Of a stretch of 64,000 nucleotides of DNA, positions 27,307-30,666 are shown one piece after another (position 1 is the first letter of the stretch; each line of letters opens with the position of its first letter). The stretch is from the NCBI GenBank assembly GCA_902614655.1, contig CACMLX010000006.1, positions 1-64,000 on the forward strand, written 5' to 3'. The translations under genes and the position numbers were made by a program. The DNA is from an uncultured Pelagibacteraceae bacterium. GTDB taxonomy: Bacteria; Pseudomonadota; Alphaproteobacteria; Pelagibacterales; AG-422-B15. The notes beneath the pieces are model-generated. The model was given only the letters and a program-made list of their open reading frames with translations. It ran no database searches and was not told the DNA's origin.

Positions 27307-27999
27307 TTGACTAAAAACCCAATTTACTGCGCTATTGATACGAGTTGTATTGATGATGCAGATAGAATTATTAATGAAATTTCACCTTATATTGGCGGAA
27401 TCAAATTAGGTCTCGAATTCTTTACATCATGTGGGGTCAAGGGAATTGAAAAAATTTCAAAATATGAACTTCCATTATTTTTAGATTTCAAACTATACGA
27501 CATACCAAATACAGTAAAAAAATCACTTCACAATATTCTGTCTTTCAATCCTACATATACAACACTTCACGTTTCGGGAGGTGCCCGTATGTTAAAAGAA
27601 TGTGTCGATTTAAAAAAAGAATTAAATAGTAATACAAATTTAATTGGTGTCACAATGCTTACAAGTTTTGATGATGACTCAATCAATGAAATTGGCATGA
27701 GCGGTACAGTTAATAAGAATGTAGATAATCTATCTGCGTTGGCATTTGATTGTGGAATGGATGGTATTGTTTGTAGCCCAATGGAGATAAAAAAAGTCAA
27801 AGAAACATTCGGATCTAAATTAAAAGTTATTGTGCCTGGAATAAGAAATCAGACAGACAATAATAATGATCAAAAGAGAACTCTTTCAGCTAAAAAAGCA
27901 ATTGAGCTTGGTGCGGATGTCATTGTTGTGGGAAGGCCAATAACTTCTGCTGACTCACCTGGAAAAGCTGCTGAAATTTTTCATCAAAGTATAAAGTGA
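27307..27999 (+). CDS. pyrF: Orotidine 5'-phosphate decarboxylase
   Basis: Last step of UMP synthesis. It has 230 residues from a TTG start at 27307. The catalytic Asp-Lys-Asp array appears in LFLDFKLYDIPNTVKKSL, the phosphate-binding end is IVPGIRNQ and then VIVVGRPIT, and the N-terminal ligand Asp is in YCAIDTSCIDDADRI. The stop overlaps the trpF GTG start by four bases (GTGA). It starts a run of tightly coupled genes through folC. Confidence 0.93.
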   Translation: MTKNPIYCAIDTSCIDDADRIINEISPYIGGIKLGLEFFTSCGVKGIEKISKYELPLFLDFKLYDIPNTVKKSLHNILSFNPTYTTLHVSGGARMLKECVDLKKELNSNTNLIGVTMLTSFDDDSINEIGMSGTVNKNVDNLSALAFDCGMDGIVCSPMEIKKVKETFGSKLKVIVPGIRNQTDNNNDQKRTLSAKKAIELGADVIVVGRPITSADSPGKAAEIFHQSIK

Positions 28000-28637
28000 C
28001 TAAAGCGTTTATTAAAATTTGTGGAGTAAAAGATATTAAAATTGCTAAACATGCAATCAATTGTGGTGCATCTTTTTTGGGCTTTATTTTTTTTGAAAAT
28101 TCAAGCAGAAATATATCAATCAGTAAATGCGCAGAAATTTTAGATGAAATAAATGGCAAAGTGAACACAGTTGCAGTAACTGTAAACCCAAGTCCTAGTG
28201 ATTTAGAGACTTACTCAAAAATGAAGTTTACGCATGTTCAATTGCACGGAAATGAAAGTTTAAATGAAGTTAGGAAAATTAATGAAGCTTATAATCTTAA
28301 AATAATAAAATCATTTAGCATATCGACAGTATCTGATTTAGATAAAATAAAAGAATATTGTCCTTTCATTGACCATATTCTATTAGACTCAAAAAAAAAG
28401 AAAGATATGCCTGGAGGGACTGGCCAGACATTTGATTGGAAGATTATCAAAAATTTTTGCCCAAATAAGTCATTTTTTCTATCAGGGGGCCTCAACACTA
28501 ACAATATATCAGAAGCATTAAATTTAAAAAAAACTGAATATTTTGATGTTAGCTCTGGCGTTGAGAATTCAGAGGGTATAAAAGATGAAAAATTAATATC
28601 TGAATTCATATCAAAGGCAAACAAAGCTGTAAAATGA
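27996..28637 (+). CDS. trpF: Phosphoribosylanthranilate isomerase
   Basis: Third step of tryptophan synthesis. It has 213 residues with a GTG start at 27996. Catalytic Cys is in IKICGVKD and catalytic Asp in HILLDSKKKK. Other family motifs are THVQLHGNES, MPGGTGQTFDW, FLSGGLNTNNI and FDVSSGVENSEGIKD. All expected residues are present, so a canonical TrpF sits beside the unusual TrpB and TrpA. It overlaps trpB by four bases. Confidence 0.94.
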   Translation: MTKAFIKICGVKDIKIAKHAINCGASFLGFIFFENSSRNISISKCAEILDEINGKVNTVAVTVNPSPSDLETYSKMKFTHVQLHGNESLNEVRKINEAYNLKIIKSFSISTVSDLDKIKEYCPFIDHILLDSKKKKDMPGGTGQTFDWKIIKNFCPNKSFFLSGGLNTNNISEALNLKKTEYFDVSSGVENSEGIKDEKLISEFISKANKAVK

Positions 28638-29863
28638 AACTAGAAAAAGGAATTCCTCTCATTGACCAACATGACGAAAATGGATATTGGGGCGGTAAAT
28701 TTGGTGGAAACCAAATAGCTGAAAGTCTCAATTATCCAATTGAAGAATTAACTCGTGAATTTGAAAAATTAAGAAACGATGAGACATTTATCGCTGAGAG
28801 AGATTATTATTTTAAAAATTTCGTTGGAGCGCCAACTCCATTTATAAAATTAGAGAACCTTACAAAGCATCTTGGTGGAGCTCAAATTTATTGCAAACTA
28901 GTTTCTAAAGCAACAGGTGGAGCGCACAAAGCTTATAATGCAGTCGTTCACAGTTTGATATGTAAGCGATTAGGCAAAACTTTTATAGGGGGTGACACTG
29001 GCGCCGGATATGCGGGAAAGATGCTCAGTATGGCTGCGGCAAAATTTAATTTAAAATGTAAAATATTCATGGGCGCGAAGGATGTAGAAAGACAGTCTAT
29101 AAATGTATTTTCTATGCGAAGTTACGGTGCTGAAGTCGTTCCTGTAAACTCTGGCTCACAAACTTTAGTGGATGCTGTGTCAGAGTGTATGAGATGGTGG
29201 ACAAGTGAGAATGAAGAAGCACATATGTGTGTTGGAAGTACTGTTGGCCCTACAATTTTTGTCAAAATATGTGCTTGGTCTACCGCTCAAATATCCAGAG
29301 AAATGAAAAAACAAGTAATGGATGAATTTGGTGAAGTTCCAAAAGATATGAAATTAATTAATTGTGTTGGTGGAGGATCGTCAGCTGCAGGTTTTTGGAA
29401 CGAATGGATTGATTATGATAATATTGAACTCATAGGGGTAGAAGCTGGTGGACCAGAGGGGTCCTCAAAACATGCCGCGCCTTTGACAAATGATTCACCC
29501 ATCGGGGTTCTTCATGGAGCAACTCAATATGTTATTCAAGACGATCAGGGGGAAATTGAAGAAACAGAATCAATAAGTGCTGGACTTGATTACCCAGGTG
29601 TGAGCCCGCTTCATTGTTTTTTAAAAGAGACTGGAAGAGCAAGATACACTTCTGCTAGTGACGAGGAGGCATTAGAAGCTTTTCAATTAGTAAGTAAAAA
29701 TGAGGGCTTTGTGAGCCCCTCTCTTGAACCTTCACACGCATTCGCAGAAGCAATCAAAATTGCACCTAAACTTAGTAAAGATACAATTATTGTTGTAGAT
29801 TCTTGCGGAGACTCTGCAAAAGACTCAAAAATTATTGCTGAGAGACTTGGTTACAAAATATGA
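28634..29863 (+). CDS. trpB: Tryptophan synthase beta-chain homologue with remodelled active site
   Basis: PLP enzyme of 409 residues in the trpB position, overlapping trpF and trpA by four bases each. It is clearly of the TrpB1 lineage (CKIFMGAKDVERQSINVFSM, NCVGGGSS, SISAGLDYPGVSP) and keeps the PLP lysine (Lys99 in GGAHKAYN). Against the Salmonella enzyme, gap-free from residue 99 to 180 by hand, it differs where TrpB is nearly invariant. Catalytic Glu109 is Asp121, Gln114-His115 are Tyr126-Ala127, Lys167 (salt bridge to TrpA Asp56) is Val179, Ser377 is Cys391, and the SGRGDKD loop is SCGDSAKD. Tunnel residues Tyr279-Phe280 also appear changed. It may still make tryptophan, or may have a new substrate. 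Confidence 0.85.
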   Translation: MKLEKGIPLIDQHDENGYWGGKFGGNQIAESLNYPIEELTREFEKLRNDETFIAERDYYFKNFVGAPTPFIKLENLTKHLGGAQIYCKLVSKATGGAHKAYNAVVHSLICKRLGKTFIGGDTGAGYAGKMLSMAAAKFNLKCKIFMGAKDVERQSINVFSMRSYGAEVVPVNSGSQTLVDAVSECMRWWTSENEEAHMCVGSTVGPTIFVKICAWSTAQISREMKKQVMDEFGEVPKDMKLINCVGGGSSAAGFWNEWIDYDNIELIGVEAGGPEGSSKHAAPLTNDSPIGVLHGATQYVIQDDQGEIEETESISAGLDYPGVSPLHCFLKETGRARYTSASDEEALEAFQLVSKNEGFVSPSLEPSHAFAEAIKIAPKLSKDTIIVVDSCGDSAKDSKIIAERLGYKI

Positions 29864-30666
29864 CATCATCTACTTTAGTTAAATCTTTTGAACGAGCAAA
29901 AGAAGATAATAGAGCTGCGCTATTAACTTATACAGTTGGAGGAGACCCAGATAAAAAAACTTCACTGAACATATTTAAATCAATTGCAGATTCAGGTGTT
30001 GATATTATTGAATGTGGACTTGGACATGGAGCCAACATTGGTGATGGTGGCGCAATTCAAGACAGTACTTACAGGGCGCTATCTAATGGGATTAAAACAA
30101 ATGACATTTTTGAAATTATTGAAGAGTTCAAAAAAGATTATGAGACAGATGTAATCATAATGACATACCAGAATAAAATTATGGCTTACGGGGAAGATGA
30201 TTTCCTTAAGAGATGCATTAGAAGTAAAGTTTCAGGCATAATATGTGTTGATTGGCCATGGCCACTTAATCTTGATTTTGCAAAAAAATGTAAAGAAAAT
30301 AGTATTGTATTCATACAATTGCTTTGCCCTACTACAAATGAAGACCGACTAAAAAGTATATTAAATGATGCTCATGAGGTTGTTTACTATATTTCAATGC
30401 TTTCAACTACAGGTCAAAAATTAAAAGTAAGTTCAGACGAAATAAAGAAAAGATTTAATTTAATTAAAAAGATATCTCCCCATAAAAAATGTATAATTGG
30501 TTTTGGTATTACAGCAGATACAATAAATGATTTTAAGGATACTGATGCGTGCGTTGTAGGATCGGCTTTGTGCAGAGAAATAACAAGATCAATTGACGAG
30601 GAACTTAATCCTGCCACAAATGTAGGTAATATGGTAAGTGATTTAAAACAAAAGCTGAGCTCATGA
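29860..30666 (+). CDS. trpA: Tryptophan synthase alpha-chain homologue with remodelled loop 2
   Basis: TIM-barrel lyase partner of the preceding TrpB, 268 residues. The catalytic acids Glu49 and Asp60 of the Salmonella enzyme are kept as Glu51 and Asp62, and the catalytic-loop Thr183 is kept in STTGQK. Phosphate-site glycines remain in GFGITADT and VVGSALC. The normally fixed loop ELGIPFSDPLADGP is here ECGLGHGANIGDGG, so Asp56, which contacts TrpB Lys167, is lost. The usual RxGVTG loop is MLSTTG, and the A-D-L/V-P region is VDWPWP. The partner's matching Lys is lost too. The start overlaps trpB and the end overlaps accD by four bases. Confidence 0.83.
   Translation: MTSSTLVKSFERAKEDNRAALLTYTVGGDPDKKTSLNIFKSIADSGVDIIECGLGHGANIGDGGAIQDSTYRALSNGIKTNDIFEIIEEFKKDYETDVIIMTYQNKIMAYGEDDFLKRCIRSKVSGIICVDWPWPLNLDFAKKCKENSIVFIQLLCPTTNEDRLKSILNDAHEVVYYISMLSTTGQKLKVSSDEIKKRFNLIKKISPHKKCIIGFGITADTINDFKDTDACVVGSALCREITRSIDEELNPATNVGNMVSDLKQKLSS

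Follow-up and report, generated by a model that had tools for sequence, protein, structure and literature searches.

An unusual TrpAB variant of SAR11 bacteria, probably a working tryptophan synthase, with matched changes in both subunits

The trp locus and the substitutions in TrpB

The window, i.e., the whole stretch of 64,000 nucleotides analyzed here, contains the genes trpF, trpB and trpA in this order. They were assigned from open reading frames (ORFs) and profile searches, supplemented by alignment for trpB and trpA. Residues of the window TrpB and TrpA were numbered by alignment with the E. coli proteins, to which they are 42% and 25% identical, respectively. The genes and the aligned TrpB sites are as follows:

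27996..28637, + strand: trpF, ordinary phosphoribosylanthranilate isomerase
28634..29863, + strand: trpB of the SAR11 (D109) type, 409 aa
29860..30666, + strand: trpA, 268 aa, matching variant alpha subunit
28928..28930, + strand: Lys99, equivalent to the PLP lysine Lys87, kept
28994..28996, + strand: Asp121 at the position of Glu109
29009..29014, + strand: Tyr126-Ala127 at the positions of Gln114-His115
29168..29170, + strand: Val179 at the position of Lys167
29588..29590, + strand: Asp319, equivalent to Asp305, kept
29801..29824, + strand: SCGDSAKD in place of the LSGRGDKD loop (residues 376-383)

The ORFs and the profile search agree with the preliminary description of this DNA in that trpB (28634-29863, + strand) is intact and follows an ordinary trpF. 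The gene encodes a 409-aa TrpB product and overlaps both trpF (28634-28637) and trpA (29860-29863) by 4 bp. Elsewhere in the window, positions 41179-63580 resemble a region for amine catabolism. Judged by eye from the translations, an extended series of ABC transporter genes lies there along with two Rieske-type oxygenases, several aminotransferases and FAD oxidoreductases, and a protein like glutamine synthetase.

The window TrpB passes the trpB cut-off of TIGR00263 (ncbifam) by a small margin (401.9 bits against 392.45); the TrpB of Pelagibacter ubique HTCC1062 (genome G058, locus L180) reaches 403.7 bits with the same profile. TrpB2 (TIGR01415) is a homologous PLP enzyme, but the window protein lies far below its cut-off, with 111.9 bits against 518.85. 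The window TrpA scores 170.1 bits against a TIGR00262 cut-off of 102.35. The best PDB sequence and fold matches of the window TrpB are TrpB1 proteins. Structure modeling, suggested in the preliminary description, yielded a TrpB fold with P. furiosus TrpB as the top Foldseek match (TM ~0.83); the AlphaFold model is of moderate quality (mean pLDDT 67.1, below 50 in residues 1-28 and 276-329), so it was used for the fold class and pocket analysis was set aside.

Alignment with E. coli TrpB confirms the residue assignments made earlier: Lys87 and Asp305 are kept, Glu109 is replaced by Asp121, Gln114-His115 by Tyr126-Ala127 and Ser377 by Cys391 (S377C), and the 376-383 loop is altered. Glu109, the indole-activating residue of studied TrpB1 members, is a catalytic feature outside the cut-off definition of TIGR00263; it is missing from the window TrpB, where an acidic residue (Asp121) remains. 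The earlier view that these catalytic replacements are unusual stands for E109D, Q114Y and H115A, which are rare: E, Q and H at 109/114/115 are kept in 59/59 alphaproteobacterial TrpB1 rows covering the sites. The comparison comprised 66 loci in a non-random sample (40 from the best-scoring matches and 26 from 20 mostly lower-scoring genomes), five of them being TrpB2 and two not covering the site. The same view does not hold for Cys377 and Leu279-His280, which are ordinary: genomes of the same family have them in their canonical TrpBs (L035, L036, L037), as do most alphaproteobacterial TrpB1 rows compared. Tyr306, where E. coli has Phe306, is ordinary as well, being carried by canonical alphaproteobacterial TrpBs.

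Among the best 80 of 174 relatives found in genome_contigs, hence the nearest ones, D109/Y114/A115 is present in 80/80 TrpBs. Farther out in the clade, positions 114/115 vary, with Met/Ala found in L033 and Met/Phe in both L149 and L150. One D109-type TrpB (L133) carries Met at position 305.

The TrpA loop, the subunit contact and selection

In Salmonella, the two subunits are joined by a salt bridge between alpha-Asp56 and beta-Lys167. In the window, the two catalytic acids of TrpA are kept, and the loop containing position 56 is rebuilt, as seen by alignment:

30010..30012, + strand: TrpA Glu51, equivalent to catalytic Glu49, kept
30022..30036, + strand: TrpA GHGAN in place of PFSDP (53-57), with Ala58 at the position of Asp56
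30043..30045, + strand: TrpA Asp62, equivalent to catalytic Asp60, kept

Other SAR11 bacteria mostly have PHNTP at TrpA 53-57. In the 80 genome_contigs loci (best 80 of 174), 0/79 TrpA rows have PFSDP and most carry GHGAN or PHNTP; Asp56-Pro57 is kept in 50/50 alphaproteobacterial TrpA rows found among the compared loci. Passages of a study of the complex state that changes of alpha-Asp56 or alpha-Pro57 significantly lower TrpA activity only inside TrpAB (PMC6608616).

The states of the two positions are matched. Across 163 distinct TrpA/TrpB pairs, which are related by descent and thus do not count as independent events, beta-Lys167 is paired with an acidic alpha-56 in 63/63 cases (51 Asp56, 12 Glu56), and Val, Ile or Leu at beta-167 is paired with Ala, Thr or Cys at alpha-56 in 99/100. 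The 99 include one broken TrpB reading (L153), and the sole exception, L077, comes from a misassigned ORF taken for TrpA. Beta-Lys167 is absent in two separate tree clades, the D109 type and the ETMN type described below. The TrpA-TrpB contact is rebuilt together with the beta active site, both beta-Lys167 and alpha-Asp56 being lost. This matched change is new here; K167V, the rebuilt TrpA loop and the SAR11-wide distribution go beyond the preliminary description. Two alphaproteobacterial TrpBs (L236 and L237) have Ser167, their partner TrpA not being among those found.

In comparison with canonical TrpB1/TrpA (Salmonella, E. coli, P. furiosus), the window pair shares the fold-type II PLP enzyme, Lys87, Asp305, TrpA Glu49/Asp60 and adjacent trpB-trpA genes, but differs in E109D, Q114Y, H115A, K167V, the 379-381 loop and the TrpA PFSDP loop. 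In a maximum-likelihood TrpB tree of 66 rows, with long branches and bootstrap values that had not fully settled, 20 D109 rows form one side of a branch with 100/100 support and a stem of 1.49 changes per column. An ordinary TrpB1 in which the same substitutions are common had been named earlier as the outcome that would speak against an unusual enzyme. The tree agrees with this in part: the D109 clade sits among Pseudomonadota TrpB1s, at an attachment point that is not well supported, but as a separate long-stemmed clade whose substitutions at 109, 114 and 115 are uncommon in the other TrpB1s compared.

Small AT-rich genomes, the long stem (1.49 changes per column) and the variation at 114/115 within the clade (L033, L149, L150) could be taken as signs that the substitutions are neutral decay in a streamlined genome, with no functional meaning. 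We regard such drift as highly improbable, given the constancy of D109/Y114/A115 in all 80 of the nearest relatives (best 80 of 174), the matched beta167-alpha56 states and the low dN/dS of trpB (~0.02-0.04). Between close relatives, both genes are under strong purifying selection: the ratio is ~0.02 (window vs L043) and ~0.04 (window vs L044) for trpB, and ~0.10 in both comparisons for trpA.

Distribution, copy number and probable role

The window comes from SAR11 (Pelagibacterales), which ranks among the most abundant bacterial groups in the ocean. The closest relatives of the window TrpB (best 80 of 174) belong to Pelagibacteraceae/Pelagibacterales, one of them being labeled only as Alpha proteobacterium. 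Some TrpB match is found in 378/397 genomes of the order; a hand count, made mostly from scores alone, assigns 341 of the 397 to the D109 type, 12 to HIMB5/g3, 5 to ETMN and 3 to the canonical type, with a distant match only in 17 and none in 19. In the class set (386 genomes, 5 of Pelagibacterales) and the overlapping phylum set (397 genomes, 2 of Pelagibacterales), scores of 680-900 bits are confined to Pelagibacterales, and the best other match among those listed has 408.6 bits. Within the searched genomes, the D109 type is restricted to Pelagibacterales. In one scan of viral_contigs, 0/37 pattern matches were confirmed as this type. Genome G058, that of HTCC1062, carries it (L180).

The SAR11 TrpB cluster itself has been known since 2008: the window protein belongs to the SAR11-like Sargasso Sea TrpB1 cluster of Kagan et al. 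2008 (PMC2395257), whose section on the cluster is silent on SAR11 active-site residues, TrpA residues and replacement of the pair. Neither the catalytic nor the interface changes of SAR11 were found described in the literature searched, with subscription papers mostly outside it and the sources (among them PMC2395257, PMC7311316, PMC9512447, PMC6608616, PMC8187860, PMC11917138, PMC5069961 and PMC10030771) represented by parts of their text. Searches of the same scope found neither a paper on E109D in tryptophan synthase nor a measured activity for the D109-type enzyme.

The window's own genome has one TrpB1. The full-genome search for a second, canonical trpB, proposed in the preliminary description, found none; the other match is short and weak (57 residues, 17.8 bits, E 6.4e-4). 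Each of 13 SAR11 genomes that are complete or nearly so (G065 with another type, the remaining 12 with D109) contains one TrpB1, one TrpA and no TrpB2 above the cut-off. TrpB2 is present in 3/17 SAR11 genomes searched (G001:C8, G303:C10 and G388:C10; 608-649 bits), the three carriers having been included on the strength of earlier matches that hinted at TrpB2; TrpB1 was not found in the incomplete assemblies of two of them, G303 and G388. In the single-contig genome G157, TrpA is split by a stop (G157:C1:517488-518248), and in G047 (L019) it falls into two ORFs; either a sequencing error or a real loss may account for these cases.

The upstream pathway is retained. TrpD occurs in 140/151 genomes of the order that are at least 90% complete and in 11/11 single-contig genomes, and TrpC together with TrpD in 11/12 equally complete genomes of the family; neither was found in the window's own assembly, which is 83% complete. 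Joint loss of TrpB and TrpD is not seen: all 7 order genomes of at least 90% completeness that lack a TrpB1 match (five show a distant match only, two none at all) have TrpD, which fits assembly gaps and yields no support for co-loss. The medium described for HTCC1062 in passages of PMC5069961 consists of artificial seawater, vitamins, glycine, glycine betaine, pyruvate and DMSP, tryptophan not being listed.

Single copy, retention of TrpD and TrpC and growth of HTCC1062 with no listed tryptophan make tryptophan synthase by far the likeliest role. We hold with considerable confidence that these SAR11 bacteria possess a single tryptophan synthase and that the D109-type TrpB, with its rebuilt active site and subunit contact, is its beta subunit; the enzyme is very probably a working one, and the window's own organism would then make its tryptophan with it. 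The compensated tryptophan synthase offered as one option in the preliminary description thus gains support from copy number, operon, order-wide pathway, purifying selection and growth of a cultured carrier.

The other option, a nucleophile or amino acceptor other than indole and serine, is not supported as a physiological role, and a different physiological product is unlikely. An E109D enzyme engineered by Brzovic et al. in 1992 reportedly shows a large rate loss and a shift of nucleophile preference towards indoline. Together with the alteration of Glu109, Gln114, His115 and the 379-381 loop, this reported preference would suit a TrpAB making another amino acid, with tryptophan as a side product or imported. 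We consider such a change of specificity very unlikely, as 13 complete or near-complete genomes have a single TrpB1 and TrpA and no TrpB2, TrpD is kept across the order, HTCC1062 grows in a medium not listing tryptophan (according to the part of PMC5069961 describing it), Asp305 and TrpA Glu49 and Asp60 are kept, and the gene context is trpF-trpB-trpA.

The SAR11 TrpB and its adjacent TrpA would convert indole-3-glycerol phosphate and serine to tryptophan, with Asp instead of Glu as the indole-activating carboxylate in this lineage. The role of Glu109 in indole activation and the rate loss reported for engineered E109D suggest that Asp should here cost rate, a point against this reading. In passages of PMC9512447, beta-Glu109 hydrogen-bonds indole N1 during C-C bond formation, the indole sub-site spans Phe306 to His115, with residues 109, 115 and 306 touching indole or framing the sub-site, and Gln114 is linked to closed-state stability. 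The SAR11 pocket has Tyr114/Ala115/Tyr306 where E. coli has Gln114/His115/Phe306. We hypothesize that Tyr114 fills the space left by His115 and Gln114 and that indole thereby moves closer to the shorter Asp109, each change in the pocket offsetting the others. Coupling to TrpA would no longer run via the 167/56 pair, and alpha-to-beta allosteric signaling may be unlike that of Salmonella. The position of 109, 115 and 306 at the indole sub-site (per the same parts of PMC9512447), with 109 and 115 differing here, may mean that this tryptophan synthase has altered side specificity or slower indole addition while its role is unchanged; as compensation by Tyr114 could restore normal kinetics, we give this refinement somewhat less than an even chance.

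A partial parallel is the stand-alone TrpB of Pelodictyon luteolum, as described in sections of PMC11917138: it is likewise a natural TrpB1 with altered alpha-beta coupling, but there six residues remote from the active site determine the coupling, and trpA and trpB are unlinked. The SAR11 TrpAB is very likely an unusual variant of a known enzyme and not a new kind of enzyme.

Most of what is understood about tryptophan synthase, a classic model of catalysis and allostery, comes from Salmonella. Here, abundant bacteria run an enzyme in which the indole-activating Glu, the carboxylate-loop residues and the alpha-beta contact pair are all different, and matched. Such enzymes offer natural, evolved answers to the question of which tryptophan synthase residues are truly required, and the natural double changes are material for testing allosteric coupling.

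TrpAB lineages in one chromosomal slot

Within one order, several forms of the TrpAB pair occupy the same locus. At least four lineages occur in SAR11: D109, canonical, HIMB5 (a label only) and ETMN, named for E-T-M-N/H at 109/110/114/115. In the tree, HIMB5/g3 (6 rows) and ETMN (3 rows, stem 3.46) are groups separate from D109. In the nine HIMB5-type members from Pelagibacteraceae (L161-L169, from G065, G220, G170, G314, G227, G064, G103, G183 and G345), TrpB Asp305 is replaced by Gln or Thr (by Asn in L169) and TrpA Asp60 by Glu; loci L038-L040 fall in the same divergent lineage. In three genomes with a type related to HIMB5 (G005, G006, G008), Asn305 in TrpB is combined with Asp60 in TrpA. 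The HIMB5 type is the sole TrpB1 of the single-contig genome G065. TrpA Glu60 is also present in L033 and in an otherwise canonical alphaproteobacterium (L235) and is thus not unique to this type. The ETMN lineage (L170-L174, from G290, G092, G354, G350 and G201) is very long-branched, with Leu167 and a TrpA loop SFNTS or PFNTS; its member L170, in a slightly shortened stretch, scores 311.5 bits, below the trpB cut-off of 392.45.

Comparisons within genera reveal uneven divergence. Between L180 and L283 (G065), which share a genus code, other genes are 49-77% identical (trpF 56%, accD 76%), TrpB 38% and TrpA 30%; between L037 and L039, also of one genus code, the values are 50% for TrpB, 45% for TrpA and 79% for accD. 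The window and L033 (G025, same genus) share 99% identity in himD and 87% in pyrF, but 40-53% from trpF to accD. The strong divergence of the trpF-trpB-trpA-accD-folC block of L033 suggests block replacement, and in the simplest reading of these sequences, trpBA pairs, at times with neighbors, would have been exchanged in place.

A new finding here is that a single chromosomal slot holds four TrpAB lineages, of which three bear replacements of their own. We tentatively speculate, with more doubt than conviction, that at least four lineages, three of them distinguished by particular catalytic and interface residues and the main type lacking the Salmonella salt bridge, swap as whole trpBA pairs in this slot and are selected as alternative alleles, e.g., by an alpha-beta interface inhibitor.

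Acquisition of the D109 type by the family of the window through horizontal transfer was considered from the comparison with L180, in which TrpB is 71% identical against 32-45% for non-trpBA genes. It is not claimed, because TrpB is also 80-82% identical between Pelagibacteraceae genera whose non-trpBA genes are at 32-50%.
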